This document shows positions 27,115-61,772 of a DNA stretch of 64,000 nt, in pieces. Origin of the DNA: Moorella glycerini (GTDB lineage: Bacteria; Bacillota; DSM-521; Neomoorellales; Neomoorellaceae). The translations under genes and the position numbers were made by a program. Under the pieces are notes generated by a model. That model was not told the DNA's origin and did no database searches. It was given only the letters and a program-made list of their open reading frames with translations. Position 1 is the stretch's first letter, and each line of letters begins with the position of its first letter. The stretch covers positions 2,480,001 to 2,544,000 of the forward strand of contig NZ_CP046244.1 of the NCBI RefSeq assembly GCF_009735625.1, in the 5' to 3' direction.

Positions 27115-28518
27115 ATGGTTGACCTTATAGTTCAAAACGGCATCTTGCTAACCATGGATCAAGAACGCCGGGTATTTCGCGGGTCAATGGCAATCAATGG
27201 CGGTAAAATTGTGGCTATTGGCGATTGTTACCATTTAGAGGCAAGTAAAACTATTGATGCTACTAATTGCGTGGTTATGCCAGGCATGATAAATTGTCAT
27301 ACGCACATTTATCAAGCCCTCATCGAAGGCATTGGCTACGACATGCACTTTGAACCCTGGAATTGGCGTTTCTTATTTCCCATCGTTTCGCGCATGAGCC
27401 CCGAACATTCTGCTATAAGTGCGGAACTAGCCAGCCTGGAGATGATAAAGTCGGGGACCACTATGGTATGTGACCACTGGTATATGCACACTTCCTTTCA
27501 AAACATACGCCAGGTGGCCGAGGCCCTGGATCGTAGCGGCATCCGCGCCAACATCATCTACGGCCTGCTAGACCAGACCTTTGCCGGCGAGCGTATCAAT
27601 TCGGAATATATGACCATGATTCACGACAAGGACAACTTGATTGAAGACGCCCGCGATTTTGTCCGGGAATGGCACGGCAGCAATCGCACCATAGTTTCCA
27701 TCGGCGCCGGGTCGAGTGAGGATGCTTCGGAGGCCTTGTTGATTAAATCCAAGGAACTGGCGGATGAATTGTGCATCCAGGTGAACACCCACCTGGCCGG
27801 GTGGCAGGATATCCTGGCCTACTGCTACCGAAAATACGGAATGCGGGATTTGGAATTCATGCATAGCCGCGGTCTCACCGGGCCCACCTCGGTCTTTGTG
27901 CATGCCGTCTGGTTAACCCCCGAAGAAATAAACATCATAGCTGAAACAGGCAGCCGCATTGTCCACTGCCCGGTGGCCAACGCCCTCTTAGGCTACGGGG
28001 TGGCGCCAGTTCCAGCCATGCTGGCGGCAGGCATCCCCGTGGGCCTGGGCACCGATGGGGCAGCCAGCTACACCTATGATCTTTTTGAGGTGTTGAAAGC
28101 TGCTGCCATGATCCAAAAAGTACACAACATGTCGGCTGATCTGTTGACCGCGGAACAGGCCCTGGAGATGGCAACTATTGGCGGGGCCAGGGTTCTGGGG
28201 GTCGATTCCCAAGTGGGCTCCCTGGAAATAGGGAAGGAAGCCGATGTGATCCTAGTGGATTTTGATAGTCCCCACCTGTTGCCTATTAACCGGGTAGTTC
28301 CCAAACTGGTTTACAGTGCTAAAGGCAGTGATGTGCGGACGGTAATAATCAACGGCAAAATAGTGATGGAAGACCGTAAGGTCCTGACAGTGGATGAAAA
28401 AGCCATCAAAGAACGGGCTCTACAGGCTGCTGCCGAACTGGTGCATAATGCCGGCCCGGAAACCGAGGCATTGTTGCGGGGAGCCTGGGGAGGCAAACGC
28501 CCCTACTGGCGTAGCTAA
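27115..28518 (+). CDS. Amidohydrolase (TRZ/ATZ group), first of four in the cluster
   Basis: A 467-residue metal-dependent hydrolase with the full barrel: metal ligands His62 and His64 (NCHTHIYQ), His226 (NTHLAGW), His263 (VHAVWL) and Asp314 (LGTDGAAS), plus the C-terminal small-domain block GSLEIGKEADVILVD. The usual catalytic glutamate after the third histidine (HLxE) is replaced here: the motif reads HLAG. That argues against an ordinary aminohydrolase mechanism and suggests a ring-opening or altered chemistry. It is the first gene after the tandem-terminator leader and lies 31 bases before an AOR gene. Its substrate is probably a nitrogen heterocycle or its derivative (inference). Confidence 0.88.
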   Translation: MVDLIVQNGILLTMDQERRVFRGSMAINGGKIVAIGDCYHLEASKTIDATNCVVMPGMINCHTHIYQALIEGIGYDMHFEPWNWRFLFPIVSRMSPEHSAISAELASLEMIKSGTTMVCDHWYMHTSFQNIRQVAEALDRSGIRANIIYGLLDQTFAGERINSEYMTMIHDKDNLIEDARDFVREWHGSNRTIVSIGAGSSEDASEALLIKSKELADELCIQVNTHLAGWQDILAYCYRKYGMRDLEFMHSRGLTGPTSVFVHAVWLTPEEINIIAETGSRIVHCPVANALLGYGVAPVPAMLAAGIPVGLGTDGAASYTYDLFEVLKAAAMIQKVHNMSADLLTAEQALEMATIGGARVLGVDSQVGSLEIGKEADVILVDFDSPHLLPINRVVPKLVYSAKGSDVRTVIINGKIVMEDRKVLTVDEKAIKERALQAAAELVHNAGPETEALLRGAWGGKRPYWRS

Positions 28519-28549
28519 GACTTAAAACCCGTGCATCGAGGTGTAGATC

Positions 28550-30370
28550 ATGGCCCGTTTTGGTACCCTGCTGCGCATTAACTTAACCCTTGAGCAGGCC
28601 AGGGAAGAAGAGATCAACCCGGACGTTCTGGAGCAGTTCGTAGGCGGTAAAGGGCTGGGAGCCTGGTACCTTTTTAATGAAATTCCCACGGGCTGCGACC
28701 CTTTAGGTGAGGAGAACAAATTATTTATGGCGCCCGGCGTCTTAAGCGGGACGCCGGCACCGGGCGCTTCCAAATATTTTGTAGTTACAAAATCGCCACT
28801 AACCGGTATATTCTTAGATACCAACTCAGGTGGCCATTTCGGGCCAGAATTGAAGGCCACGGGTCACGACCTGGTGATCATCGAAGGCCGAGCCTCGCGC
28901 CCGACGTGGATTTATATTGAGAATGACAAAGTAAGCTTTATTGCGGCCGAGGACCTCTGGGGCAAAGGGATATACGAGACAGAGACCATTATTCGTGAGC
29001 GCTTGAAGGATCCCCGGGTGCGGTGCGCTTCTATCGGCCCGGCCGGGGAAAACCTGGTGCGCTATGCCTGCATCGCCAATGATTATTCCCGGCACCTGGG
29101 GAGAGGCGGTGCCGGCGCCGTAATGGGTTCCAAAAATCTTAAGGCCATCGCTGTGCGGGGTTGGCAGGATGTAAAGGTGGCCCGGCCGGAACTGTTTGAG
29201 CAGGCGGTAAAGGCCGCCGTAGCCTGGGTCATGCAGAACGGATGGGTCGCCTTGAAGCGCCGCTGGGGCACCTCTGAAGCCGTGGAAATAATGAATCAGC
29301 AGGGCATCTGGCCGGTGAATAATTTTAGTGCTACTACCTTTGAGGGAGTAGATCGGATTAACCACGAAGCCTTTGACCGCGGCCTGGTAAGGAGGCTGGC
29401 CTGCGCCACCTGCCCGGTCGCCTGTTCTAAAGGCTACCGTGATACCACTTATACCGGCGGAGAAGTCGAAGGTCCGGAATTCGAAACCATCACTTTGCTG
29501 GGGGCCAACCTGGGCCTGGCCGATCCCCAGGCTATAGCCGCAGCCAACTATCTATGCAACAACTATGGTCTAGACACGATTTCCACGGGTGCCGTTATCG
29601 GCCTGGTTCTGGACGGTTTGCGCCAGGGGAAGTTGACCCAAAACCAATTAGGGTTGCCGGAGAACAAGACTGGGGTAGAGCTGGTGCTGTGGTTAGTTAA
29701 CGCTATCGCCCGGCGCCAGGGTTGCGGAGACCTGCTGGCCCAGGGCTCCCGGCGTATGGCGGAAGAATTGGGGTTGGGGGATACGGCGCCCCAGGTTAAG
29801 GGCATGGAAATGTCGGCCTACGACCCGCGGGCTTCTTACGGCATAGGCCTGGCCTACCAGACCTCGGACCGGGGAGCCTGTCACCTCAGGACCTGGCCCA
29901 TCGGCCGGGAGATAAGCGGCGAGCTGCCGCCGCGGAACTCCATTGAGGGCAAGCCCGAATTCGTCAAACGGCAGCAGGATGAGAAAGCAGCCCAGGAGTG
30001 CCTGGGGGTGTGTCAGTTCCCCTACGGCATAGGGTTACTGGGTGACGAACTCATTAATTTGCTGAATGCGGCCATAGGAACCAATTTCACAGTGGATAGT
30101 TTTCGCCGGGTAGGCGAGAGAATCTGGAATCTGGCGCGGCTGTTCAACGTAAGGGAGGGCCTGAGCCGCAAGGATGACCTTTTGCCTCTCAAGTTTAGCA
30201 TTGAACCCTTACCTGATGGGTTATCCAGAGGCAAGACCTTGAGTTACCCTTTGCAGGAACAAATGCTGGACCGCTACTACCAGCTTCGCGGCTGGGATGA
30301 AGACGGCATACCTTCGGCCGCAAAACTGCAAGAACTGGGTTTACAGCTTAAGGTACCGGGAGGAAAGTGA
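28550..30370 (+). CDS. Aldehyde:ferredoxin oxidoreductase family protein (AOR-1)
   Basis: A 606-residue tungsten-type AOR. It has the N-terminal pterin-binding domain, the RGGAGAVMGSKNLKAIAVRG motif near 185-204, the [4Fe-4S] ligands Cys285, Cys288 and Cys292 with a C-terminal Cys484 or Cys488, and the central GLDTISTGAVIG block. AORs oxidise aldehydes to acids, or run in reverse, with ferredoxin, using a tungsten bis-pyranopterin. A polyferredoxin-like gene follows after six bases. The order amidohydrolase-AOR-Fe-S is repeated at 33.4-37.2 kb. Its substrate is likely a product of the neighbouring hydrolase, but closer identification is not possible. Confidence 0.9.
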   Translation: MARFGTLLRINLTLEQAREEEINPDVLEQFVGGKGLGAWYLFNEIPTGCDPLGEENKLFMAPGVLSGTPAPGASKYFVVTKSPLTGIFLDTNSGGHFGPELKATGHDLVIIEGRASRPTWIYIENDKVSFIAAEDLWGKGIYETETIIRERLKDPRVRCASIGPAGENLVRYACIANDYSRHLGRGGAGAVMGSKNLKAIAVRGWQDVKVARPELFEQAVKAAVAWVMQNGWVALKRRWGTSEAVEIMNQQGIWPVNNFSATTFEGVDRINHEAFDRGLVRRLACATCPVACSKGYRDTTYTGGEVEGPEFETITLLGANLGLADPQAIAAANYLCNNYGLDTISTGAVIGLVLDGLRQGKLTQNQLGLPENKTGVELVLWLVNAIARRQGCGDLLAQGSRRMAEELGLGDTAPQVKGMEMSAYDPRASYGIGLAYQTSDRGACHLRTWPIGREISGELPPRNSIEGKPEFVKRQQDEKAAQECLGVCQFPYGIGLLGDELINLLNAAIGTNFTVDSFRRVGERIWNLARLFNVREGLSRKDDLLPLKFSIEPLPDGLSRGKTLSYPLQEQMLDRYYQLRGWDEDGIPSAAKLQELGLQLKVPGGK

Positions 30371-30376
30371 AAGCCA

Positions 30377-30754
30377 ATGGCACGCCTTAAGTTAAATAAG
30401 AATTTTTGTACAGGGTGCCGCACCTGTGAATACGCCTGCTCTCTGGCCCACGGGGGTGCCTACAATCCCGAACACAGCCGCATCCGGTTATACCGGACGG
30501 GTTGCCTGCAGATAGAAGCTAGGTATTGCGTTCAATGTTCTCGCCCCCGGTGCGTAGGCGCTTGCCCCAGGGGAGCCATCCACAAGCAGGATGAAAAGGT
30601 TACCATCGATCCTGAGTTGTGTGACGGCTGCGGTATATGTCAAGGTATCTGTAATCGGATTATGCTGGACAGAGCCACCGAAAAAGCCGTAATGTGCGAT
30701 GGCTGTGGCGCGTGTGTCCCCGCCTGTCCTGAAAGAGCCCTGGCCCTTAGCTGA
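30377..30754 (+). CDS. 4Fe-4S ferredoxin-type partner of AOR-1
   Basis: A 125-residue protein with four cysteine groups: CTGCRTCEYAC, CVQCSRPRCVGAC, CDGCGICQGIC and CDGCGACVPAC. This pattern is of the HycB/AOR-associated polyferredoxin type. It starts six bases after the AOR-1 stop and is probably its dedicated electron acceptor. No signal peptide, so cytoplasmic. Confidence 0.9.
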   Translation: MARLKLNKNFCTGCRTCEYACSLAHGGAYNPEHSRIRLYRTGCLQIEARYCVQCSRPRCVGACPRGAIHKQDEKVTIDPELCDGCGICQGICNRIMLDRATEKAVMCDGCGACVPACPERALALS

Positions 30755-30804
30755 TGGGAGAGGCCGGGCAAATTATTTAGTGAATTCAAGGAGGAGAATT
30801 TCTA

Positions 30805-32154
30805 ATGATACTCATAAAAAATGCGCTAATTGTAACCCAGGACCAGGATCATACCGTCATCCGCAACGGTTACATCCAGGTGGACGGCGATCACATTTCG
30901 GCTCTGGGCCCTATGGAGGAATTGAGGGACCAGGAGATTCCGGGAGCCGAAGTCATTGATGCCAATGACCAGATCGCCATTCCCGGATTTGTGTGCTGTC
31001 ACAACCACCTCTATAGCGCCATTGTACGGAGTCTTCCCTATTCCGGTTATGATGACGTGGACTTTTCCTTCGTCTCCTGGATGGAACGTTTCTGGTTTGA
31101 CAAGTTGGAAAACAAGGTCAATAACGACGATGTATATATAGGCACGCTGATCAATTGCATGGAGCAGGTCAAGCGCGGCATCACCACCACGGCTGATACG
31201 GTGGAGGGCCCCAATGCCCTCCCGGGAACCCTTTTTGCGGCCGGCAAGGCAGCTCAAGAATCCGGTATGCGGGCCGTCCTGTCCTTTGAGACCACCGGCC
31301 GGATAAGCGAGGAAAACGCCAGGCTGGGTCTGGAGGAAAATATCAATTTTGTCGAAGCCATGCGTAAGAACCCCGGACGCATCGAGGGCCGTATCGGCGT
31401 CCACACTACCTACACCTGCTCCACTGAACTCATCCAGGCCGCCCGTCGGGAGGCCGACCGCCTGGGTTGCGGTCTGCAGATGCACTTATGCGATGACCGC
31501 TGGCACAGCTTTGATACCACCTTACGCTTTGGCAAGCGGGCCGTCAAATATCTGGAAGACATCGGCTTCCTGGGGCCTGACGTGTTATTCGCTCACGCCA
31601 GCTATATCGACCCTTTGCAGGACCCTGAGATCCTGGCCAAATATGACTGCAAGATTTCCCACCAGGCAGTTTCCAATGCCATCTTCGGGTTTTGGCCCAA
31701 TATGGTACCCTTAATTCGCGCCGGGGTAACGGTGGCCCTGGGCATAGACGGTATGACCCAATCCATGTTTGAAATTATGCGGGCGGCCCAAATGATTCAC
31801 CGGATACGCTATGAGAACCTGGAGCTGCTCTCCGATAGCGAGGTCTTTAATATGGCTACTATGAACGGGGCGCGGTGCCTCCAGAAGGAAAAGGAAATCG
31901 GCTCCCTGGAAGTGGGCAAAAAAGCTGATATCGTGCTCCTGGATAACACTAGCCCGGTGCCGGTGTTCGAAGGGAACGTATACAACTTCCTGGTCAGCGT
32001 AGCTGATAGTTCCCATGTGGATACGGTTCTGGTGGATGGTCAGGTGGTGGTTCGCCATAAGAAACACCAACTGGTGGATGAGGCCGCCATGCGCGAAGAG
32101 TGCCGGGAAAGGGCTAAAGATTTCTGGAAGCGGAACGGGTGGCCTATCCCATGA
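30805..32154 (+). CDS. Amidohydrolase, second of the cluster
   Basis: A 449-residue TRZ/ATZ-type hydrolase. Metal ligands are His66 and His68 (CCHNHLYS), His227 (MHLCDD), His264 (FAHASYID) and Asp315 (in LGIDGM, where relatives have GTDG). As in the first paralogue, the HLxE glutamate is missing (HLCD). The 3' end overlaps an M20 deacylase gene (ATGA), a coupling which suggests sequential hydrolysis of amide or ureido bonds. ATG behind AAGGAGGAG. The strongly altered active-site loops make substrate transfer from known deaminases unsafe. Confidence 0.88.
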   Translation: MILIKNALIVTQDQDHTVIRNGYIQVDGDHISALGPMEELRDQEIPGAEVIDANDQIAIPGFVCCHNHLYSAIVRSLPYSGYDDVDFSFVSWMERFWFDKLENKVNNDDVYIGTLINCMEQVKRGITTTADTVEGPNALPGTLFAAGKAAQESGMRAVLSFETTGRISEENARLGLEENINFVEAMRKNPGRIEGRIGVHTTYTCSTELIQAARREADRLGCGLQMHLCDDRWHSFDTTLRFGKRAVKYLEDIGFLGPDVLFAHASYIDPLQDPEILAKYDCKISHQAVSNAIFGFWPNMVPLIRAGVTVALGIDGMTQSMFEIMRAAQMIHRIRYENLELLSDSEVFNMATMNGARCLQKEKEIGSLEVGKKADIVLLDNTSPVPVFEGNVYNFLVSVADSSHVDTVLVDGQVVVRHKKHQLVDEAAMREECRERAKDFWKRNGWPIP

Positions 32155-33422
32155 ACAAACCCCGGGTAAAGGCGGCGGACGCGGACGTCAAAACGATTTC
32201 GGAACCGGAAACCCTTGTGGGACGGCCCGGCGGGATATCCCGGGAGCAGGTTGTGGAGCTCACCAGCAAATTGATCGCCATTCCCAGCGTAAACGGGGAA
32301 GAGGGCTGCCTTGGGGAATACCTGCGGGAACTCTTCCAAATTCTGGGCCTCCAGGTAGTCACCCAGGAAGTGGCCCCTGGCAGGTTTAATGTCCTCGGGA
32401 TATGGCCACCCATTGAAGAGATCGCAGTCGCGACAGCAGGCCTTCTGCTTCACGCTCACTATGATACGGCTGCCCCCTACGATATGGAGGAGCCCTTCTC
32501 GGGAGCTGTCAGAGGAGGTTATATTTGGGGCCGGGGCACTGTAGACCAGAAAGGGGGCCTGGCAGCAGCCATCATGGCGGTGGCGACGGTAAAAAGCCTG
32601 GGGTTTAAGCCGAGCAAGCCCGTTGTAGTGGCCGCCGTGGTGGATGAAGAGGCTGAACATCGCGGGAGCAGCCGCCTGGTACAAAGCGGCCTGAAGGCGG
32701 ATATGGCCATAGTGACTGAGCCCTCAAGCTTGAGGATAGTCCCGGGCTGTAAGGGCACCGTACCCCTGAAAATCGAGGTGGAGGGGAGGGCGGCCCACGG
32801 CTGCCGGCCCTGGCTGGGAATCAACGCAGTGGCCCGGGCGCTGCCAATCTTGAAGCGTCTTTTCGAGCTTACCTACCCGGAAGTAGATCTGGGGCCCGAG
32901 CTGGGCCGTATCCGGGGGTCCTTGAATGTAGGGCTGATCCAGGGCGGAGTGGCCTACAACATGGTACCTGCCAGTTGCACTATATGGCTGGATCGCCGGA
33001 CGGTTCCCGGCGAAACCCCAGCAGGGGTAATGGCCGAAATACAAAAAGTCCTGACCCTGGCGAGAGAAGAGGTGCCGGACTTAAAGGCGGATGTCAGCAT
33101 CGCCCGTCCCGATTGGAACTGGGAGCCCATCAGGAAGCGCGGACTGAATCCCGCTTTGACTGCGGTGGACTCGGCGGTTGTTTCCCTGGTACGGGAGACT
33201 CACCAGCAGGTGCTGGGGAAAGACCCGGTGCTATATTTTACCGATGGTTATAACGAACTGGATTTTCTGGTAAACGACCTGGGCATTCCCTCCATCCAGT
33301 ACGGGCCAGGCGACTCCAGGTTGGCCCATACCTCTGAGGAAAGGGTGGAGGTGGAGGAACTGATAACCTGCACCGAGGTTTACGCCCGCCTGATCCTTAA
33401 GGCTTGCGGAGGGGAGGTATGA
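32151..33422 (+). CDS. M20-family metallohydrolase (ArgE/DapE/ACY1-like)
   Basis: A 423-residue zinc amidohydrolase. Metal and catalytic motifs are LLHAHYDTAAP, RGTVDQKGGLAA and VVDEEAEHRG; the dimerisation domain contains EGRAAHG and the final metal histidine is in LAHTSEERVEV. I use ATG 32151, overlapping the stop of the upstream amidohydrolase, though GTG 32139 is in frame. Relatives remove acyl, succinyl, formyl or carbamoyl groups from amino acids, and related M20 genes occur with ssnA and xdh genes in enteric purine-related clusters. Here it may cleave a ring-opened N-acyl or ureido acid (inference). Confidence 0.88.
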   Translation: MNKPRVKAADADVKTISEPETLVGRPGGISREQVVELTSKLIAIPSVNGEEGCLGEYLRELFQILGLQVVTQEVAPGRFNVLGIWPPIEEIAVATAGLLLHAHYDTAAPYDMEEPFSGAVRGGYIWGRGTVDQKGGLAAAIMAVATVKSLGFKPSKPVVVAAVVDEEAEHRGSSRLVQSGLKADMAIVTEPSSLRIVPGCKGTVPLKIEVEGRAAHGCRPWLGINAVARALPILKRLFELTYPEVDLGPELGRIRGSLNVGLIQGGVAYNMVPASCTIWLDRRTVPGETPAGVMAEIQKVLTLAREEVPDLKADVSIARPDWNWEPIRKRGLNPALTAVDSAVVSLVRETHQQVLGKDPVLYFTDGYNELDFLVNDLGIPSIQYGPGDSRLAHTSEERVEVEELITCTEVYARLILKACGGEV

Positions 33423-33425
33423 GCA

Positions 33426-34766
33426 TTGTCGGCAATTCCCCAGAAGGCGGACCTGTTGCTTACCGGCGGCTATGTGCTAACCATGAATGAGCGGCAGGAG
33501 CGCCTGGTTAAAGGAGCGGTGGCCATTAAAGGGAGCCGCCTGGTAGGCGTGGGCGAGGCGGAGGCCTTAAAGGCTCAATTTGTGGCCGACAAAGTTATTG
33601 ATTGTACCGGTGCTATCATAATGCCCGGTCTGGTAAATGCCCATACCCATGAAACCCTTACCCGGGGCCTGGCCGAGGATTTGCCCTTGATGCGCTGGCT
33701 GCAAGAGATCTGTTATCCCCTTGAGAAGAATTATACCGCCGCAGATATGCAGGCGGCAGCCCTCATGAACCAGCTGGAAATGATAAGAGGAGGCATTACC
33801 TGCTTTATCGATATTTTCCGCTTTGCGGATGCCGCAGCAGCGGTGGCCCGGGAATCGGGCCTTCGGGCCATCTTCTCCCCCCAGATTATTGACGAGTTCT
33901 CCTCCTTTGGGGAATCCCTGCCCCGCACCGAAAGGCTCATAAAGGAGTGGCACGGTTGCTGCGACAACCGGATCCAGGTGTGGGTGGGAGTGCATGCGCC
34001 CTATTCCAACTCACCGGCGGTTTACCGCCAGGCCCGGGAACTGGCCAACCGCTACGGGGTGGGCCTCCACACTCATCTGGCGGAAACCCGCGATGAAGTG
34101 CGCCTTATCGCCGAGAAATATGGCAAGACTCCGGCCCGGCATCTTTTTGATCTGGGAGTTTTTGACGGCCCCTCGGTGGTGGCCCACTGCGTGCACCTCT
34201 CGGAAGAGGATATGGATATCCTGGCCCGGCAGAAGGTGGGGATTGCTTACAATCCCACGAGCAATATTAAAATGGCGGCCGGCATAGCCCCGGTTCCCCA
34301 GATGCTGGCCAAAGGCTGCCGGGTGGGGTTAGGTACGGATTCAAACTTAAGCAATAACAATTTAGATATGTTTGAAGAAATGAGATGGGGTTCCTACATC
34401 CAGAAAATGGCTCATAATGATGCCGGGATCCTGCCGGCTTACCGGATGCTGCACCTGGCCACCATGGGTAGCGCTGCTGCCCTGGGTTTGGATAAGGAAA
34501 TTGGCTCCCTGGAAGTGGGAAAAAAGGCGGACATTATAGTGTTAAGCCTTAAGGCGCCCCACCTGTGGCCTGTTTATACAGACCGGGCCGACAATGTGGT
34601 GGAGCAGATAGTGTATTCGGCCAGGGCTGACGACGTAATTACCACTATTGTGGATGGCCGCCTCCTTATGGAAGACAAAAAAGTTTTAACCATTGATGAA
34701 GATAGGGCCTTCCATCAGGTGCAGAGTGCTGCTGCCAGCCTGTATGAAAGGAGTTTTGGGCAGTGA
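33426..34766 (+). CDS. Amidohydrolase, third of the cluster (canonical active site)
   Basis: A 446-residue hydrolase of the MTA/SAH deaminase-SsnA group with an intact site: His73 and His75 (NAHTHETL), His217 and Glu220 (HTHLAET), His254 (VAHCVHL) and Asp305 (LGTDSNLSNNN). It therefore probably deaminates or hydrolyses an aromatic amine or ring. The start is TTG 33426, seven bases after GGAGGT; the overlapping ATG at 33419 is in another frame and soon stops. The stop overlaps the GTG of AOR-2, so hydrolase and AOR are translationally coupled. Confidence 0.9.
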   Translation: MSAIPQKADLLLTGGYVLTMNERQERLVKGAVAIKGSRLVGVGEAEALKAQFVADKVIDCTGAIIMPGLVNAHTHETLTRGLAEDLPLMRWLQEICYPLEKNYTAADMQAAALMNQLEMIRGGITCFIDIFRFADAAAAVARESGLRAIFSPQIIDEFSSFGESLPRTERLIKEWHGCCDNRIQVWVGVHAPYSNSPAVYRQARELANRYGVGLHTHLAETRDEVRLIAEKYGKTPARHLFDLGVFDGPSVVAHCVHLSEEDMDILARQKVGIAYNPTSNIKMAAGIAPVPQMLAKGCRVGLGTDSNLSNNNLDMFEEMRWGSYIQKMAHNDAGILPAYRMLHLATMGSAAALGLDKEIGSLEVGKKADIIVLSLKAPHLWPVYTDRADNVVEQIVYSARADDVITTIVDGRLLMEDKKVLTIDEDRAFHQVQSAAASLYERSFGQ

Positions 34767-36682
34767 AGAGTGTTAAAGGCGACACCGTGTTACGGGTAAA
34801 CCTGTCCACCGGCCAGAGCAGGATCGAAAAATTGAGCCCACACTTTGTGGCTGATTACCTTGGGGGCCGTGGCTTTACCTCTCGCCTTATGCTGGAGGAA
34901 ATAGGTGCCGAGGTTGATCCTTTAGGTCCGGAGAATAAACTTTTCTTCGCTACCGGCCCCTTTACCGGCACGTCGTGGCCCTCTTCTTCCCGCTATACCG
35001 TGGCGGCCAAATCACCTCTAACAGGCATCCTGGGCGATGCCAATTCAGGAGGTTTCTGGGCGGTAGAACTTAAACGGGCGGGTTATGACGCTCTGATAAT
35101 TGAGGGCCGGAGCCCGGAACCGGTTTACCTTTTCATTGACGACAGTCAGGTGAGCTTGAGGAGCGCCCGAGGTATATGGGGCAAGGATTTCATTACGGCT
35201 ACCGACTTGATTCGGGAGGAGCTAGGGGACCCTGAAATTAAAGTAGCCGGAATCGGGCAGGCCGGCGAGAACCTGGTGCGTTTTGCAGCCGTAATGAATG
35301 ACTACTACCGGGCCGCCGGCAGGACCGGTATGGGCGCAGTCATGGGCTCCAAGAATCTAAAAGCCATTGCCGTAAGGGGTAGCCAGGGCGTTCGCCCGGC
35401 CGACATGGAGCGTTTCCAGCGGGCAGTTGCAGTCGCTTACCAGAAGAACATGGCCAGCCCCTGGCTGCGTAGCTTTCGGGATGCCGGTACGGCTATGCTG
35501 GTGGACCTGTGCGCGCCTCTGGGCATCATGTCCACCCGTAACTTTGCCAGCGGGGTTTTCCCCCATTGGCGGAAGATCAATGCAGAGGCCTTTCGCAGCC
35601 GCTATCGGATGACCAACGGGGCCTGTGCCAACTGCGTTAATCGGTGCGATAAACGCCTGGTGGTGCTGGAAGGCCAATACCGGGGCCTCTTTGGCCGGGC
35701 GCCGGAGTATGAGGCTATTTCCGCCTTCGGCCCCCGGTGCGACATCGACGATCTGGACGCCATAGTCTATGCCAACCATCTCTGCAACCTTTATGGGATG
35801 GACGTCATGTCGGCAGGGGGCGTCATTGCCTTTGCCATCGATCTCTTCCAGGCCGGCCTGTTGACCCCTGAAGAAACCGGTGGCCAGGTTCTCAAGTGGG
35901 GTGATCCCGAGCTTCTGGTGAACCTGGTCCAGGATATAGCCTTCCGGAAGGGTCTGGGTGATCTCCTGGCCGAAGGTGAGCGCCGGCTGGCACAACACGT
36001 GGGCGATGCTGCCAGGGAACTGGAGACGGATATTAAAGGTTTGGAAATGGTCGGCGGGGACATCCGGGGCCAGTTGGAGCATGCCCTGGGTTGGGCCGTG
36101 GCCAGCCGGGGCTGCGACCATTTGCGCGGTCTGGCCAACGTGGTCCTTTTTGGGGACCGGGAGACAGTGGAGAAAGTTTTTGGCAGGGAAAAGTTTCCGG
36201 AAATCCTGGACAGCCACTCCCCCAAATATAAGGGCTACGTTATTAACTGGTGTGAGAATTTCCTGAGCGCCGTGGATGCCCTGGGCCTTTGCAAGTATGT
36301 CACGGCTTACCCGGTCTTCCTGCCGGAAGACCTCTGTGAAGCCTATGCCGCCCTTACCGGTCGGGAGGTAACTCCCGAGTACTTCATGCTGTGCGGGGAG
36401 CGCATCACCAACGTGGAGCGCCTGTTTAATCTGCGCCAGGGCCTTACGGCGGCGGACGACATCGTTGGCCTGAAATTCACCAAACCCATGCCGGAAGGCC
36501 CGGCCAAGGGAATAGCTGTGGAAATCGAACCCATGGTCGCCGAATACTACCGGGTCCGCCACTGGGATGCCCAGGGGGTACCTACCAGGGCCAAGCTGCA
36601 GGAGCTGGGACTTTTGGACGCAGGGTTGCAAGTGGCTGAGGCCAGGGGGTTAACCCTATCAGAGGGGGGAAAAGAGAATTGA
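34763..36682 (+). CDS. Aldehyde:ferredoxin oxidoreductase family protein (AOR-2)
   Basis: A 639-residue AOR paralogue. The N-terminal pterin-binding domain is present. The RTGMGAVMGSKNLKAIAVRG motif carries Thr where AOR-1 and AOR-3 have Gly. Cluster cysteines lie in CANCVNRC, with a fourth in the late LGLCKYV segment; the GMDVMSAGGVIAFA block replaces the usual GLDT. These changes set it apart from AOR-1, suggesting a different aldehyde or a different reaction. GTG start overlaps the upstream amidohydrolase stop, and its own stop overlaps the next Fe-S gene by 4 bases, so three proteins are made in a coupled series. Confidence 0.9.
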   Translation: MKSVKGDTVLRVNLSTGQSRIEKLSPHFVADYLGGRGFTSRLMLEEIGAEVDPLGPENKLFFATGPFTGTSWPSSSRYTVAAKSPLTGILGDANSGGFWAVELKRAGYDALIIEGRSPEPVYLFIDDSQVSLRSARGIWGKDFITATDLIREELGDPEIKVAGIGQAGENLVRFAAVMNDYYRAAGRTGMGAVMGSKNLKAIAVRGSQGVRPADMERFQRAVAVAYQKNMASPWLRSFRDAGTAMLVDLCAPLGIMSTRNFASGVFPHWRKINAEAFRSRYRMTNGACANCVNRCDKRLVVLEGQYRGLFGRAPEYEAISAFGPRCDIDDLDAIVYANHLCNLYGMDVMSAGGVIAFAIDLFQAGLLTPEETGGQVLKWGDPELLVNLVQDIAFRKGLGDLLAEGERRLAQHVGDAARELETDIKGLEMVGGDIRGQLEHALGWAVASRGCDHLRGLANVVLFGDRETVEKVFGREKFPEILDSHSPKYKGYVINWCENFLSAVDALGLCKYVTAYPVFLPEDLCEAYAALTGREVTPEYFMLCGERITNVERLFNLRQGLTAADDIVGLKFTKPMPEGPAKGIAVEIEPMVAEYYRVRHWDAQGVPTRAKLQELGLLDAGLQVAEARGLTLSEGGKEN

Positions 36683-37152
36683 AAAAGTTGCTCGTTGATT
36701 ATAGCAAATGCACCGGATGCGGTTCCTGCGAGATGCACTGTTCTTCCCGGAGCGGAGAATTCAACCCCCTCTTAAGCTTCATCAATGTGGTGCGCAGGGA
36801 AAAGGAAGGTGCCTTCATCCCCCTGGTCTGCGCCCACTGCGAGGAGCCGGTCTGCCAGGCGGTATGCCCTTACGGCGCCATTAGCAGGGTAGACGGAATC
36901 GTGCGGGTGGAACAACAAAAATGTCGCGGCTGCCGCCTGTGTCTGCAGGTATGTCCCTTTGGCGCCCTTCGGCAGTTGCCCGGCCAGAAGACGGTGCAGA
37001 AATGCGACCTCTGTGGTGGGGACCCCCAGTGCGCCCGATATTGCCCCAGCGGGTCCTTACAATACGTGGAAGAGGAAGTCTATAACCGTAGCCGGCGGCG
37101 CGAACTGGCGGCGCGGGTTTGGGATGAAGCCACCTCTGAAAGGAGCACGTAA
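36679..37152 (+). CDS. 4Fe-4S ferredoxin-type partner of AOR-2
   Basis: A 157-residue polyferredoxin-like protein with cysteine groups CTGCGSCEMHC, CAHCEEPVCQAVC, CRGCRLCLQVC and CDLCGGDPQCARYC. TTG start at 36679 inside the AOR-2 stop, with a GGGGGGAAAAG site. It most likely accepts electrons from AOR-2. The fourth group, with its GGDPQC insertion, is shared with the partner of AOR-3 and absent from that of AOR-1. Confidence 0.9.
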   Translation: MKKLLVDYSKCTGCGSCEMHCSSRSGEFNPLLSFINVVRREKEGAFIPLVCAHCEEPVCQAVCPYGAISRVDGIVRVEQQKCRGCRLCLQVCPFGALRQLPGQKTVQKCDLCGGDPQCARYCPSGSLQYVEEEVYNRSRRRELAARVWDEATSERST

Positions 37153-37155
37153 ACT

Positions 37156-38091
37156 ATGCCCGGAGTAGACCAACCCGGCCGGTTTCAAGGAGTTATAACC
37201 GCCCTCCTTACTCCTTTTACGCGGGGCGGGCAGGAAGTAGATATGGGCGCCCTTAAAGGGTTGTGCGAGTGGCAGATAAAAGCCGGGATACACTGCCTGT
37301 TCCCCCTGGGCACCACCGGCGAGGGCCTGTTACTGTCACCGGAAGAAAGAAAACGGGCGGCTGAAGCAGTGGTGGAGCAGGTGGCCGGGCGTATCCCGGT
37401 GATCTTGCATGTAGGGCATATAAGCACCTCGGTAAGCTGTGACCTGGCCCTGCATGCCGCCGCCACCGGGGCCGATGCCGTAGCAGTGATAGCACCCTAC
37501 TTCTATCCCCTGGACGAGGAAGCCCTGGTGAACCACCTGGTGGCGGTAGCCCGATCCGTGCCCCGGCTGCCGGTTTTCCTGTATAACAATCCGGCCACTG
37601 CCGTAAACAGCATCAGCCGACGGGTTTTCCGGCGGGTCAGCCAGGCATGCGATAACATCATGGGTCTAAAAGACAGTAGTAAAAGCCTGGAAATCCTGGC
37701 TGGCTTTGTGGAGGAACGGGAGCCGGGCCAGGTGGTGCTGGTAGGCGGGGATGGTCTAGTCTATGAGGCCCTGGAGTTGGGCGCCGCCGGTTGTGTGAGC
37801 AGCCTGTCCGGGGTATTCCCCTGGGCCATGCTGGATATTTACCGCCTCTGGCAGACGGGCGATAAGGAAGGAGCCCGGTCGGCCCAGACCCGTGCCCGGG
37901 CCCTGCAGCAAGCCCTCCAAAAAGGCCCTTACTACGCTAGCTGTAAAAAGATTTTAAAGTGGATGGGCCTGCCAGGCGGTGAGGTACGGCCTCCTATGCG
38001 CGATTTGACCGCGGATGAGGAAAGGATGGTTCTGGAGGCCTTAGAGGGATTTCAGCATGTTAAAAGAGGTGGCACCCATGGAACTCCGTAG
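37156..38091 (+). CDS. DHDPS/N-acetylneuraminate lyase-family aldolase
   Basis: A 311-residue class I aldolase of the DapA superfamily. Visible are the substrate loop PLGTTGEG, the catalytic tyrosine in FLYNNPA, the Schiff-base lysine in IMGLKDSS and the VGGDGL segment. The family uses pyruvate or 2-oxo acids in reversible aldol or dehydration reactions (dihydrodipicolinate, KDG, 2-keto-3-deoxy-pentonate and others). No lysine-pathway gene adjoins it, and the next gene encodes an IlvD-like dehydratase, a pairing also seen in sugar-acid catabolism. ATG behind AAAGGAG; the end overlaps the next gene. Confidence 0.9.
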   Translation: MPGVDQPGRFQGVITALLTPFTRGGQEVDMGALKGLCEWQIKAGIHCLFPLGTTGEGLLLSPEERKRAAEAVVEQVAGRIPVILHVGHISTSVSCDLALHAAATGADAVAVIAPYFYPLDEEALVNHLVAVARSVPRLPVFLYNNPATAVNSISRRVFRRVSQACDNIMGLKDSSKSLEILAGFVEEREPGQVVLVGGDGLVYEALELGAAGCVSSLSGVFPWAMLDIYRLWQTGDKEGARSAQTRARALQQALQKGPYYASCKKILKWMGLPGGEVRPPMRDLTADEERMVLEALEGFQHVKRGGTHGTP

Positions 38092-39748
38092 CCGTAAAGT
38101 GGTGAGCGGACCAGAGCGCCTTCCCTGGTCGGCCAACCTTAAAGCCTGTGGCTTTACCGATTTGGAGTTGTCCCAGCCTCTGGTGGCAGTAGCCAATAGC
38201 TGGAATGAAATCTGCCCGGGTCATATTCACCTGCGCAGCATATCTCAGGCCGTGAAGGACGGCATACGCCTGGCCGGCGGCACTCCCATGGAATTCAACA
38301 CCATGGCCATCTGCGACGCTCTGGCTCAGGGGCACGAAGGGATGCGATATGTTCTGCCCAGCCGCGAAGTCATTACGGCTGCCATTGAGCTGACGGTGCA
38401 GGCTTACCAGTTTGACGCCCTGGTACTTATAGGCTCCTGCGATAAAATTCTCCCGGCCCAGCTCATGGCAGCCGGGCGTCTGAACATCCCCACTCTGATG
38501 ATAACGGGCGGCCCTATGCTCCAGGCCACCCACCGGGGCCAGAAGGTGGCCCCGACCGATGTCCTGGAGAGCCTGATGCGCCTGCGCCGCGGGGAAATGG
38601 AGGCAGCCGAACTTAAAGCGCTGGCAGAAGCCTCTTTCCCCACTGCCGGGTCCTGCCTGGGAGTCTGGACTGCCAATTCCATGGCTTGTGTAGCCGAAGC
38701 CCTGGGAATGACTCTACCAGGTTCGGGGACCATCCCGGCCGTCTACTCCCGGCGCCTGTGGCTGGCTAAAGAAACAGGTATTAAAGTAATGGAACTGCTC
38801 CGCCGAGGTATTAAGCCATCGGACATTATGACCCGCGAGGCTTTTGTCAATGCCATCAGGGTGGCCATGGCCCTGGGAGCCTCCACCAACGTGTTTTTGC
38901 ACCTGCCAGCCATTGCCGCCGAACTGGACTTAACGATTGATCTTGACCTTTTCGACGCCCTAAGCCACACCACTCCGCGCTTGTGTACCCTCAACCCGGG
39001 CGGCCCCCACGTCATACCGGATCTCGACGAAGCCGGCGGAGTCCAGGCTGTTATGCTTGAACTGGGCGACCTCATCAACGGCGAGGCCTTGACCGGAACC
39101 GGGCGTACGGTGAGAGAAAACCTGGCAGGGAAAAGGGTTTTGAACCCGGAAGTGATCCGGCCGCGGGCCCGCCCGGTGGCACCGGAGGGGGGGCTGGCGG
39201 TCCTCAAGGGCAGTCTGGCCCCCCGGGGCGCCGTGGTCCGGACCGCCACTATAGACCTGGGCAGCCGGCATTTTTGCGGCCGGGCCAGGGTATTTGAATC
39301 TGAGGAAGCAGCCACCGGGGCCATACTTTCCGGCCGCATTTCCCCGGGGGATGTTATGGTAGTGCGCTACGAGGGGCCACGGGGCGGGCCCGGCATGCGG
39401 GAAATGTTGACGGCTTCGGCCACCCTCAATGGAGCAGGGCTGGGCACCCAGGTAGCCCTGATCACCGACGGCCGTTTCTCCGGGGCCAGCCGGGGTATAT
39501 GCATAGGCCACATCTCGCCCGAAGCAGCCGAGGGCGGTCCCATCGCCCTGGTTCAGGAGGGGGACTTGATTGAGATTGACTTAGAGAGGCGTACCCTGGA
39601 TATCTGCCTGTCGAAAGAAGAGCTGAACGAGCGGCGGCGGGCCTGGCAGCCGCCTCCGCCCCGGATAACCAGGGGGTATCTTGGCCTTTATGCCAGGGTG
39701 GCTAGCTCTGCCGATAAAGGAGCTGCCGTTAACCCTGGCTGGCTCTAA
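38078..39748 (+). CDS. IlvD/Edd-family dehydratase
   Basis: I choose ATG 38078 (MELRSRKVVSGPERLP) behind AAAGAGGTGG; an earlier in-frame ATG is at 38057. The roughly 556-residue protein has IlvD/Edd family motifs: NSWNEICPGHIHL, PMEFNTMAICDALAQGHEGM, the Fe-S cysteine in GSCDKI, PTAGSCLGVWTANSMACVAEALG and the late TDGRFSGASRGICIGHISPEAA. Members dehydrate dihydroxy acids or aldonic acids. Canonical IlvD has NCDK where this reads SCDK. An IlvC-like gene follows, but no acetolactate synthase gene is present, so a catabolic or specialised role is likely (inference). Confidence 0.88.
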   Translation: MELRSRKVVSGPERLPWSANLKACGFTDLELSQPLVAVANSWNEICPGHIHLRSISQAVKDGIRLAGGTPMEFNTMAICDALAQGHEGMRYVLPSREVITAAIELTVQAYQFDALVLIGSCDKILPAQLMAAGRLNIPTLMITGGPMLQATHRGQKVAPTDVLESLMRLRRGEMEAAELKALAEASFPTAGSCLGVWTANSMACVAEALGMTLPGSGTIPAVYSRRLWLAKETGIKVMELLRRGIKPSDIMTREAFVNAIRVAMALGASTNVFLHLPAIAAELDLTIDLDLFDALSHTTPRLCTLNPGGPHVIPDLDEAGGVQAVMLELGDLINGEALTGTGRTVRENLAGKRVLNPEVIRPRARPVAPEGGLAVLKGSLAPRGAVVRTATIDLGSRHFCGRARVFESEEAATGAILSGRISPGDVMVVRYEGPRGGPGMREMLTASATLNGAGLGTQVALITDGRFSGASRGICIGHISPEAAEGGPIALVQEGDLIEIDLERRTLDICLSKEELNERRRAWQPPPPRITRGYLGLYARVASSADKGAAVNPGWL

Positions 39749-39779: not shown

Positions 39780-40772
39780 ATGCCCAGGATTTATTACGAC
39801 CAGGATGCCGATCTTTCCTATCTGAAGGACAAAACGGTGGCCATTGTAGGCTATGGTAACCAGGGCCGCTCACAGGCGCTGAACCTGAGGGATAGCGGCA
39901 TTAACGTTATCGTAGGCAATACCAGGGACCGGGCCTGGGATCAGGCTAAGGAGGACGGCTTTGAAACCTATCCGGTGGCTGAGGCCGTGGAGAGGGCCGA
40001 TGTCATTGCCCTGCTGGTACCTGACGAAATAGCTCCCCAGGTTTATGAGGAAAGCATTGTGCCTCATCTCAAGGAAGGAAAGGTCCTGGATTTTGCCAGC
40101 GGCTATAATGTTACCTATGATTTCATCCAATTCCCCGAGTACATCGACGTGATTATGGTAGCACCCCGTATGATCGGTCGCTCAGTGCGGGACCTCTTCG
40201 TGCAGGGAAGTGGTGGACCCAGCCTGGTAGGCGTTCACCAGGATTATTCCGGCCAGGCCTGGGAGAGGGCCCTGGCCTTTGCCAAGGGAATAGGCTCCAC
40301 CCGGGTGGGTGCCGTAGAATCCAGCTTTGAAGAGGAGACCCGCTGCGACCTCTTCGGCGAGCAGCTGTCCGGCGGGTTGCTTTATATGATCCGGACCGCC
40401 TATGAGATTATGGTGGCCAACGGCATAAGTGAGGAGGCCGCTATCCTGGAGCTCGTGGCTTCCGGTGAGCGGGAGGAAACGGTCCGGGCCATGACGGAAA
40501 TGGGTCTCTTCCATCAACTGGTGCTTCATTCCCACACCAGCCAGTACGGCCAGTTGACCCGGGGCCGACGCATGGTGACCGACAAAACCAGGATGGTAAT
40601 GGAAGAGATCATGCAGGAAATCGTGACCGGAGCCTTTGCCAAGGAGTGGATGCTGGAACAACAGGCGGGCCTGCCCCTGTTTAAGGGCCTCTGGAAGCAG
40701 AGCCTGCGCCATTCGTTCACAGCAGCAGAAAAGCGTGTACACGACAAGCTGGCTCGAAAAGAGAAGGAATAA
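39780..40772 (+). CDS. IlvC-like reductoisomerase with altered active site
   Basis: A 330-residue protein aligning along its length with class I ketol-acid reductoisomerase: dinucleotide motif VGYGNQGRSQALNLRDSG, LLVPDE, and the metal-site segment EEETRCDLFGEQLSGG. The highly conserved APKGPGH loop reads APRMIGR, so the catalytic lysine and histidine are both arginine. The C-terminal knotted domain is also divergent in the second glutamate region (ILELVASGEREET). It follows an IlvD-like gene by 31 bases but there is no ilvBN. I conclude it is a paralogue with a different 2-oxo or hydroxy-acid substrate, perhaps only a reductase. ATG behind GGAAGGAG. Confidence 0.85.
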   Translation: MPRIYYDQDADLSYLKDKTVAIVGYGNQGRSQALNLRDSGINVIVGNTRDRAWDQAKEDGFETYPVAEAVERADVIALLVPDEIAPQVYEESIVPHLKEGKVLDFASGYNVTYDFIQFPEYIDVIMVAPRMIGRSVRDLFVQGSGGPSLVGVHQDYSGQAWERALAFAKGIGSTRVGAVESSFEEETRCDLFGEQLSGGLLYMIRTAYEIMVANGISEEAAILELVASGEREETVRAMTEMGLFHQLVLHSHTSQYGQLTRGRRMVTDKTRMVMEEIMQEIVTGAFAKEWMLEQQAGLPLFKGLWKQSLRHSFTAAEKRVHDKLARKEKE

Positions 40773-46781: not shown

Positions 46782-46849
46782 CTGGGGACTGTAGTGTGCT
46801 TGAGGCTACCTGCTGGGCTACGGTGTCTAAACTTGAATTCTTACAGGTG

Positions 46850-48250
46850 ATGTCAGTGACTGAGAACAAAGCCTCAATTTTGATCAAAGGTGGCTGGCTG
46901 GTCACCATGAACCGGCAGCGCGAAATCAAGCAGGGGGACCTATTGATAGAAGATGGCATAATAAAGGCCATCGGCCACTTCAAGGGGCCGGCCCGGCTAA
47001 CCATCGATGCCAGCGAGATGATAGTGTTGCCCGGATTTATCCAGACCCATGTTCACCTCTGCCAGGTGCTTTTTCGGGGACTGGCCGATGACGTAGATGT
47101 AGTAGACTGGTTAAAGCACCGTATCTGGCCCCTGGAAAACGCCCACGATGAGGAGAGCATCTATTGTTCGGCCTGGTTGGGCATAGCCGAACTCCTGGCG
47201 GGAGGCACCACGACCATACTGGCCATGGAGACCACCAGGCATACCGATGCCGTGTTTCAGGCCCTGCTGGAGAGCGGAATGCGCGCCGTGGCCGGTAATG
47301 CCATGATGGATGTCCAGGAGCCGGGAACGGAAATGGAAGGCCAGGATTCCCGCACCGTCCTGGCTGAGAGCAAGCGGCTCTGGCGAAGCTGGCACGGCCG
47401 GGATAATGGCCGGCTCCAGTATGCCCTGACTCCTCGAGGCCCCAGGAATTGTTCTCCGGAATTGCTGTCCGAAATAGCCCGCCTTTCGGCTGAGGAGGGA
47501 CTCCTGGTGCACAGCCATGCGGCCGAAAACGGGCCCCTGGCGGAGAGGGTGGCCCGGGAGACGGGTGTAAGGGATGTGGTGCTTTTCCATCGCCTGGGCC
47601 TCGCCAGTCCCCGGCTGGTACTGGCCCACTGCATCTGGCTGGACGAACAAGAACTGGAACTGGCGGCTTCCACCGGTATTAAGGTTACCCATTGCCCTTC
47701 AGCCAATCTCAAGCTCAGCTCCGGGTTTGCTAAAATACCGGAAATGCGGTCCAGGGGTATCAATGTTTCCCTGGGCGCCGATGGAGCACCCTGCAACAAC
47801 AACCTGGACATGTTTAACGAGATGCGCCTGGCCGCCCTCATCCATAAGCCGCGCTGTGGGCCACGGACCCTGCCTGCCGAGGAAGTGCTGGAAATGGCCA
47901 CCCTGGGGGGCGCCAGGGCACTGGGCCTGGAGAAAGAAATCGGCAGCCTGGAAGTGGGCAAGAAGGCCGATGTGACCCTGGTGCGGCGGGACCGTTTCCA
48001 TAGTAGCCCCTGGCAACGGGTGCCTCTGCCTTCTCAGATAGTGTACTCCCTTAAGGCTGGTGATGTGGATACCACCCTGGTTGAAGGGCGCATCTTGTAC
48101 CGCCATGGCCGACTGACTATGCGCGCAGGTAACGATATCGTTGAGGCAGCCAACACGGCTATCGAGCGGGTACTGGAGCGGGTTCCCTTTGGGCGGGAAT
48201 TCGGCCGGCAGCCGGGTAGCAGAATATGGAGTTCTGAAAGAGGTGTTTAA
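46850..48250 (+). CDS. Amidohydrolase, fourth of the cluster (deaminase-like)
   Basis: A TRZ/ATZ-group hydrolase of about 466 residues. From ATG 46850 the first metal pair is His67 and His69 (FIQTHVHLCQ); then come HSHAAENG with the glutamate present, AHCIWLDEQE, and LGADGAPCNNN (the metal aspartate in GADG). The motif set resembles the N-ethylammeline chlorohydrolase/8-oxoguanine deaminase-like subgroup, so an aromatic ring deamination is plausible. The start is uncertain: GTG 46856 lies at ideal distance from AGGTG, while GTG 46796 would add 18 unlikely residues. It lies between the transporter and an SDR gene, with two bases to the latter. Confidence 0.88.
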   Translation: MSVTENKASILIKGGWLVTMNRQREIKQGDLLIEDGIIKAIGHFKGPARLTIDASEMIVLPGFIQTHVHLCQVLFRGLADDVDVVDWLKHRIWPLENAHDEESIYCSAWLGIAELLAGGTTTILAMETTRHTDAVFQALLESGMRAVAGNAMMDVQEPGTEMEGQDSRTVLAESKRLWRSWHGRDNGRLQYALTPRGPRNCSPELLSEIARLSAEEGLLVHSHAAENGPLAERVARETGVRDVVLFHRLGLASPRLVLAHCIWLDEQELELAASTGIKVTHCPSANLKLSSGFAKIPEMRSRGINVSLGADGAPCNNNLDMFNEMRLAALIHKPRCGPRTLPAEEVLEMATLGGARALGLEKEIGSLEVGKKADVTLVRRDRFHSSPWQRVPLPSQIVYSLKAGDVDTTLVEGRILYRHGRLTMRAGNDIVEAANTAIERVLERVPFGREFGRQPGSRIWSSERGV

Positions 48251-54284: not shown

Positions 54285-55178
54285 ATGAAAGATATAGGCT
54301 TTATTGGTCTGGGTATCATGGGGAAGCCCATGGCCAAGAATTTGCTCAGGGCCGGTTACCGGCTGGTAGTTTATAACCGGACCGCCTCGAAAATGGAAGA
54401 AGTGGTGGCGGCGGGAGCCCAGCCGGCCCAATCCAACAGGGAAGTGGCCGAGAAATCGGAAGTTATAATAACTATGCTACCTAACTCACCGGAAGTTAAA
54501 GAGGTAGTCCTCGGCCCCAACGGGGTTTTGGAAGGGGCCAGGCCCGGCTCCATTATTATTGATATGAGCTCTATAGCACCCCTGGTCACCATGGAAATAG
54601 CTAAGATAGCGCAGGCTAAAGGCGTCCGGATGCTGGATGCCCCCGTCAGCGGGGGAGAGCCCGCGGCTATACAGGGCACCCTTTCCATTATGGTCGGGGG
54701 CCCGGAAGAAGATTTCCAGGCCTGCTATGATATACTCCGGGCCATGGGTTCTTCTGTAGTGCGAGTGGGCCCCATTGGTTTTGGCAACCTTGCCAAGCTG
54801 GCCAACCAGATCATCGTTGCCATAAACATTGCCGCCATGGCCGAAGCCTTTACTCTGGCTTGCAAAGCCGGCCTGGAACCTGCAGTGCTGTATGAAGCTA
54901 TCAAAGGAGGGCTGGCCGGCAGCAAGGTGCTGGATGCCAAGGCGCCGCTGGTCATGAACCGCAAGTTTGACCCGGGTTTCCGTATCAATCTGCATATTAA
55001 AGACTTAACCAACGTTCTGGAAACAAGCCACCAGCTGGGAGTACCCATGCCCCTTACATCCAGCGTCCTGGAAATGATGCACGCCATGAAGGTGGACGGA
55101 CATGGGGATGAGGATCACGGGGCATTGGCCAAATTCTATGAAAAGCTGGCCCAGACGGAAATCAAGACCAGGCAGTAA
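54285..55178 (+). CDS. 3-Hydroxyisobutyrate dehydrogenase-family protein
   Basis: A 297-residue beta-hydroxyacid dehydrogenase: Rossmann motif GFIGLGIMGKPMAKNL, substrate loop DAPVSGGEPAAIQGTLSIM, the catalytic lysine in LAKLANQIIVAINIAAMAEA, and KDLTNVLETSHQLGVPMPL. The family includes 3-hydroxyisobutyrate, tartronate semialdehyde and 2-(hydroxymethyl)glutarate dehydrogenases. A CoA-acylating semialdehyde dehydrogenase gene follows directly, so the likely product is a semialdehyde such as methylmalonate or malonate semialdehyde (inference). AGGAGGAG precedes the ATG. Confidence 0.9.
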   Translation: MKDIGFIGLGIMGKPMAKNLLRAGYRLVVYNRTASKMEEVVAAGAQPAQSNREVAEKSEVIITMLPNSPEVKEVVLGPNGVLEGARPGSIIIDMSSIAPLVTMEIAKIAQAKGVRMLDAPVSGGEPAAIQGTLSIMVGGPEEDFQACYDILRAMGSSVVRVGPIGFGNLAKLANQIIVAINIAAMAEAFTLACKAGLEPAVLYEAIKGGLAGSKVLDAKAPLVMNRKFDPGFRINLHIKDLTNVLETSHQLGVPMPLTSSVLEMMHAMKVDGHGDEDHGALAKFYEKLAQTEIKTRQ

Positions 55179-61288: not shown

Positions 61289-61772
61289 GGTATGGTTCAC
61301 CTGGCCTGACGGTTCCCTGTTTGCGGGTAGCCCATTGACGGGGTTCAACATAAGCCAGGGCCGGATATCCTGTATGGGGGAAGGTACGACAGAAACGGAC
61401 ACACTGAGGCTCGCCGCCACAAAGGTCACACTTGAGGGCGACATTTTCTACTGGATCGAAAAACATGGCGCCAAAGGGACAGGATTCCACGCAGGTACCG
61501 CACCCGGTACACCTGGCGGTATCGACCAGGGCAATACCTAGCTTGGTATCTATATAGATAGCTTTAAATTTGCAGGCCGCCAGGCACACCGGCTGCTGGC
61601 ATTGCCGGCATACTACAGGTTTGTCTTTGCCATGTAAAATATCGCTGACAATTTTTATCCTGGCCTTTTTGGGATTAACCTCTCCCGCTTTGCTGTGGTG
61701 CAGGGAGCAGATAATCTCGCAGTACTGGCACCCTGTACAGATAGAACTATCTACCATTAATTTGCGCACCAC
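61275..61772 (-). CDS. 4Fe-4S ferredoxin-type partner of AOR-3
   Basis: A 165-residue polyferredoxin-like protein starting at GTG 61772 (VVRKLMVDSS) behind AAAGGAGAGG; the longer frame to 61853 is shadow sequence within AOR-3. Cysteine groups: CTGCQYCEIIC, CRQCQQPVCLAAC, CTGCGTCVESC and CDLCGGEPQCVRFC. The GGEPQC insertion matches the partner of AOR-2. It overlaps AOR-3 by 26 bases and the MoaD-like gene by 14, so all three are translationally coupled. It should accept electrons from AOR-3. Confidence 0.9.
   Translation of the reverse strand: MVRKLMVDSSICTGCQYCEIICSLHHSKAGEVNPKKARIKIVSDILHGKDKPVVCRQCQQPVCLAACKFKAIYIDTKLGIALVDTARCTGCGTCVESCPFGAMFFDPVENVALKCDLCGGEPQCVRFCRTFPHTGYPALAYVEPRQWATRKQGTVRPGEPYHDTD

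Follow-up and report, generated by a model that had tools for sequence, protein, structure and literature searches.

The ketol-acid reductoisomerase (KARI) homologue encoded at 39780-40772 of the window (the whole stretch of DNA analysed, 64,000 nucleotides) belongs, as judged from alignment and tree, to a rare and separate clade outside true IlvC and is not one odd protein. We refer to this group as the APRM clade, after its APRM signature. The label "ketol-acid reductoisomerase" that automatic annotation gives to this gene probably conceals another function. We give about an even chance to the protein having departed from branched-chain synthesis to act in sugar-acid catabolism, as an oxidoreductase of 2-oxo/2-hydroxy acids that is NAD(H)-linked and Mg-dependent and need not perform alkyl migration. 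The wider proposal falls a little short of even: the clade may be an unrecognised family with its own sugar-acid reaction (NAD-linked reduction, oxidation or oxidoisomerisation), sparse in bacteria and archaea, whose members databases wrongly call IlvC and one of whose structures has been deposited under a mistaken physiological role.

The KARI-like gene and its neighbourhood

The gene is an intact open reading frame of 330 codons on the plus strand, with an ATG start behind a GGAAGGAG site. Pfam matches to KARI_N (220.5 bits) and KARI_C (118.2 bits) identify a class I KARI-fold protein, and the predicted structure (pLDDT 95) aligns to KARIs, including their knot fold, with Z about 40. The protein also scores above the NCBIfam equivalog thresholds for ilvC (340.6 vs 336 and 309.5 vs 226); the cut-off fails to tell it apart from IlvC. 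The genes around it that enter the argument are as follows.

34763..36682, plus strand: aldehyde:ferredoxin oxidoreductase (AOR) family protein (PF01314/PF02730)
36679..37152, plus strand: 4Fe-4S electron carrier adjoining AOR (profile match)
37156..38091, plus strand: DapA-family lyase/aldolase, overlapping the ilvD start (PF00701, 208 bits; reaches no NCBIfam cut-off)
38057..39748, plus strand: second IlvD, dihydroxy-acid dehydratase (DHAD) type, 563 aa (NF002068, 711 bits vs cut-off 644; TIGR00110, 683 vs 618)
39780..40772, plus strand: KARI-like protein of the APRM clade, 330 aa (open reading frame, Pfam, tree, structure model)
54285..55178, plus strand: tartronate semialdehyde (2-hydroxy-3-oxopropionate) reductase, in the same gene run (NF008592, 479.9 bits vs 397; TIGR01505, 408 vs 341)

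These genes lie in a tight run with, in order, amidohydrolases, an M20 peptidase, AOR, the 4Fe-4S carrier, the DapA-family lyase, IlvD and the KARI-like gene. It continues with a DHOD-like flavoprotein with a ferredoxin domain, a BMP-type ABC transporter, a 5'-deoxyadenosine deaminase-like protein, an SDR and a D-2-hydroxyacid dehydrogenase, and then a molybdenum hydroxylase (by eye), a YgeY-type hydrolase, the tartronate semialdehyde reductase, MMSDH and a PucR-like regulator (by eye). As an earlier note on this DNA had stated, ilvBN is absent near the KARI-like gene in the window, but that note passed over the DHAD-type ilvD only 31 bases upstream. The product of this second ilvD is 54% identical to the canonical IlvD of the source genome, whose gene adjoins apparent ilvB and BCAT genes (by eye).

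The source genome carries a separate canonical ilvC elsewhere, which makes the KARI-like gene a paralogue, as the earlier note had supposed. Among the remaining genus and family genomes in our set, we found neither the APRM paralogue (canonical or partial KARI matches only) nor a close copy of the second IlvD. From this distribution, both genes look either acquired in the source lineage or lost elsewhere.

The window also contains three AOR-family genes in all, the one listed above and two recognised by eye (28550-30370 and 61747-63678), of which two have a 4Fe-4S partner gene. At 6-2854, 27115-34766 and 46796-48250 lie several amidohydrolases resembling deaminases (5'-deoxyadenosine, SsnA or MTA type), a gene for an MtnA-like protein (by eye) and PucR-like regulators, a set that possibly serves nucleoside or purine salvage.

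Replaced and retained active-site residues

The positions that set the protein apart, and those that it shares with KARIs, fall in five segments.

39909..39929, plus strand: cofactor loop IVGNTRD, residues 44-50 (N47 and D50; the acidic residue is mostly absent from canonical loops)
40092..40118, plus strand: FASGYNVTY, residues 105-113 (conserved His replaced by Ser107)
40161..40181, plus strand: APRMIGR, residues 128-134 (conserved Lys replaced by Arg130)
40347..40364, plus strand: DLFGEQ, residues 190-195 (metal ligands D190 and E194 retained)
40449..40469, plus strand: ELVASGE, residues 224-230 (Glu ligands E224 and E230 retained; two-residue insertion with the clade-unique Ser228)

The sequence bears out the earlier observation that an APRMIGR loop (within VIMVAPRMIGR) stands where canonical KARIs have an APKGPGH-like segment, with DLFGEQ and the nucleotide motif GYGNQG kept. 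The further claim that both the catalytic Lys and His of this loop are replaced held for Lys only. All 108 canonical homologues have Lys at position 130 and all 36 APRM proteins have Arg, whereas the loop His occurs in only 77 of the 108 canonical sequences and is thus not invariant. The truly conserved His is H107 of HGFN (108/108 canonical), which is Ser in the KARI-like protein. The 130/107 pair is spaced 23 residues apart, as are K155 and H132 of E. coli KARI, and the replaced Lys and His are among the residues tied to isomerisation.

The metal site is conserved. D190, E194, E224, E230 and S251 are invariant in 144/144 aligned homologues, E230 of the KARI-like protein being reached by the aligner past the two-residue insertion, and E186 is likewise retained. 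As a natural experiment, the clade may help to separate the KARI residues that support alkyl migration from those that support reduction: Lys has become Arg, His has usually become Ser and one insertion has been added, while the metal site is unaltered.

A separate clade within the KARI family

The 144 non-redundant homologues split completely into 36 APRM proteins (R130, M131 and the two-residue insertion with invariant Ser228) and 108 canonical proteins, which have K130 and H107 and lack the insertion. Our search pattern contributed in part to the uniformity of R130 and M131, but it did not select for the insertion or for Ser107. This partition rules out chance or a misreading of the motif. 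Most APRM proteins have Ser107 and three retain His107 (L123, L151, L154). Judging by these sequences, Lys to Arg is the general change of the clade and His to Ser a common one. One of the His-retaining cases, from a Wolframiiraptor archaeon (L123; L149:3783-4817), combines APRM and the insertion with AHGFS and adjoins ABC transport genes.

In a maximum-likelihood tree, the APRM set formed one side of a branch with 100/100 support, with the canonical KARIs on the other. Support remained at 99 when the signature columns were removed and the archaeal IlvC proteins of the same genomes were added, which rules out that the clade is an artefact of its own motifs. The family tree suggested in the earlier note therefore places these proteins in a clade of their own and not among true IlvC.

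A canonical KARI accompanies the APRM copy in every APRM-bearing genome checked; in one (G755) it is class II only, recognised by length.

Gene context across the clade

Marker proteins revealed distinct surroundings for the two groups. An ilvB gene lay within 10 kb of 1/28 APRM loci vs 28/35 canonical loci (Fisher p 5e-10; ilvB query taken from a canonical locus, and loci from related genomes are not independent). At least two sugar-acid markers accompanied 10/28 APRM loci vs 1/35 canonical loci (p 0.0015), a count biased towards this result by marker queries taken from APRM loci and subject to the same non-independence. Half of the APRM loci have no sugar-acid marker.

The APRM contexts include a GntP permease with GntR; a tripartite tricarboxylate transporter with Fe-ADH and an MR/MLE enzyme; HpcH aldolase with 2-hydroxyacid dehydrogenase and Dak1; MR/MLE dehydratases with HpcH aldolase and Fe-ADH; TRAP with glycerate kinase and ALDH; many MR/MLE dehydratases with sugar ABC transport and aldolases; and AOR with UxuA, a TPP enzyme and an HIBADH-type enzyme. 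The proposed tie of the clade to amidohydrolase/AOR clusters proved mostly local: AOR occurs at one other APRM locus (L147), and amidohydrolases were not seen to recur.

Exceptions to the sugar-acid context are the Sulfolobales, loci with a hemC-like neighbour, and Lachnospiraceae loci that adjoin molybdenum/selenium genes. ThiC directly adjoins the APRM gene in three Sulfolobales loci (L200:8145-10487, L201:6763-9102 and L211:6748-9503; Pfam-tested in one), twice in one genome, and was not seen at the remaining APRM loci read.

Comparison with known KARI-family enzymes

The nearest solved structure is Sso-KARI, the "Putative ketol-acid reductoisomerase 2" of Sulfolobus solfataricus (PDB 6JCV, 6JD2 and others), which is 50% identical to the KARI-like protein. 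It shares the SGYN, APRM and ASGE signatures and belongs to the same clade, but it adjoins ThiC, has no sugar-acid marker within 10 kb, and is filed as a KARI. The genome whose APRM gene matches it (G922, L200) has a canonical copy (L215) too. Sso-KARI structures contain Mg, NAD(P)H and CPD, an inhibitor of KARI, and the enzyme was reportedly assayed as a KARI with both NADH and NADPH. The title of its paper describes it as bispecific. Literature searches on Sso-KARI, ilvC2 and sugar-acid KARIs found nothing pertinent.

Class I KARI itself (IlvC, EC 1.1.1.86) shares the fold (Z about 40), the metal ligands, Ser251 and the Rossmann motif with the KARI-like protein, which differs in Arg130, Ser107, the two-residue insertion, the missing ilvB linkage and its separate clade. 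The repurposed enzyme BurG (PDB 7PCC), also of the KARI family, resembles it in fold (Z 38.6), in an Asn/Asp cofactor loop and in being a duplicate beside a canonical ilvC, but has another context and chemistry than the APRM clade. BurG uses Asn48 and Asp51 to keep the phosphate of NADP out of its cofactor site, and the NADH-specific enzyme reduces hydroxypyruvate to glycerate with a kcat of 16.3 per min (PMC9359912). The GNxxD loop of the KARI-like protein resembles that of BurG, and NAD(H) use is predicted on this basis. Closer kinship with BurG was unsupported: against a clade profile, BurG scored 239 bits (canonical level) and Sso-KARI 526. Hydroxypyruvate is reduced by KARIs generally, and the second KARIs Sco2 and Sli2 of Streptomyces are described in terms that fit the KARI-like protein, namely as paralogues with a suspected other function and hydroxypyruvate reduction (PMC4353338).

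Proposed function and alternatives

The earlier note had suggested that the paralogue catalyses another reduction or isomerisation. This is the better reading of the data, since the protein is a paralogue in a separate clade that often lies in catabolic clusters and rarely near ilvB; Sso-KARI, with its KARI ligands and reported KARI activity, speaks against it. As Tyagi reportedly found in 2005, E. coli KARI mutated at conserved polar active-site residues can lose isomerisation and keep reduction. Together with the BurG-like loop and the reduction of hydroxypyruvate by KARIs, this makes a reductase acting on hydroxylated 2-oxo acids without alkyl migration the simplest fit. A 2-oxo-3-hydroxy acid (alternatively the corresponding 2,3-dihydroxy acid) would be positioned above NAD(H) by two Mg ions, and hydride transfer would occur at C2, as it does in the reductive step of KARI, with alkyl migration lost or reduced to a hydrogen shift. 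In the pathway of the window, the enzyme would probably yield a 2,3-dihydroxy acid comparable to glycerate or a small sugar acid, which the adjacent DHAD-type IlvD could dehydrate to a 2-oxo acid, and the aldolase, AOR and tartronate semialdehyde reductase may serve the same pathway. Our guess at the substrate would begin with hydroxypyruvate or tartronate semialdehyde. IlvC naming in databases leads genome-scale models to draw a second valine/isoleucine step where a catabolic one is probable.

Several observations count against such an oxidoreductase, and some of them favour a working KARI in which Arg and Ser functionally replace Lys and His, the ilvD-ilvC pair then being an accessory branched-chain set or an NADH-using isozyme. 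The strongest is Sso-KARI, a clade member whose structures contain Mg, NAD(P)H and CPD and which reportedly has KARI activity. The ilvD directly upstream is equally compatible with a KARI step, every metal ligand is retained, and the ilvC equivalog cut-offs are passed. We nevertheless consider a working KARI unlikely given the canonical ilvC and ilvD already in the genome, the separate clade, the rarity of ilvB at APRM loci relative to canonical ones and the catabolic surroundings in the window. The window also already has a dedicated tartronate semialdehyde reductase, and the Sulfolobales pair the gene with ThiC and not with sugar-acid genes, while half of the loci are marker-free; these points, too, weigh against the oxidoreductase.

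D-apionate oxidoisomerase (ApnO) is reported to run KARI chemistry in reverse, as an NAD-linked oxidation with an acyl shift. A comparable sugar-acid oxidoisomerase would fit the metal site kept for ketol chemistry, the NAD-type loop and the sugar-acid neighbours and uptake systems at APRM loci, but it is improbable with both replaced residues among those tied to isomerisation and with a window that holds no recognisable branched sugar-acid pathway. The three ThiC-adjoining loci would suit a thiamine-related role or the reduction of ketopantoate or another precursor of a vitamin, and a KARI can supply ketopantoate reductase activity, to go by a title in the references of PMC4353338. With ThiC not seen at the other APRM loci read and catabolic contexts in most of the bacteria, this role appears highly improbable. 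Two replaced active-site residues might finally suggest a decaying or structural pseudoenzyme. That is scarcely credible for an intact reading frame within a tight gene run, in a clade whose 36 diverse members keep the metal ligands and Ser invariant along with R130, M131 and Ser228 (R130 and M131 partly pattern-selected). The NAD(H)-linked oxidoreductase remains our preferred reading.

Distribution of the clade

The sampled sequences suggest that the clade is spread sparsely and patchily over archaea, spirochaetes, Lachnospiraceae, and plasmids of Sulfitobacter and haloarchaea. An unselected genome scan returned 80 loci, which were canonical KARIs plus three SGYN/APRM genes (one spirochaete, two Lachnospiraceae). 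Pattern sampling, which requires exact codons and so yields lower bounds, found the exact APRM motif in 1/398 genomes of the phylum of the source genome (Bacillota), namely the source genome only; on this count, itself a lower bound, we reject a wide spread across Bacillota. By the same lower-bound measure, the pattern occurred in 8/200 genomes of one archaeal phylum (that of L058), in 13/118 genomes of the class of a Sulfolobales-like genome, in 4/118 genomes of the spirochaete class, and as one true match among 146 genomes of the order of L041, where a second match (L140) has in-frame stops. Plasmid records added members from Sulfitobacter and haloarchaea. On a second Sulfitobacter plasmid (L155:12001-12855), the APRM gene is shortened at its 5' end, lies between insertion sequences and is annotated as hypothetical.
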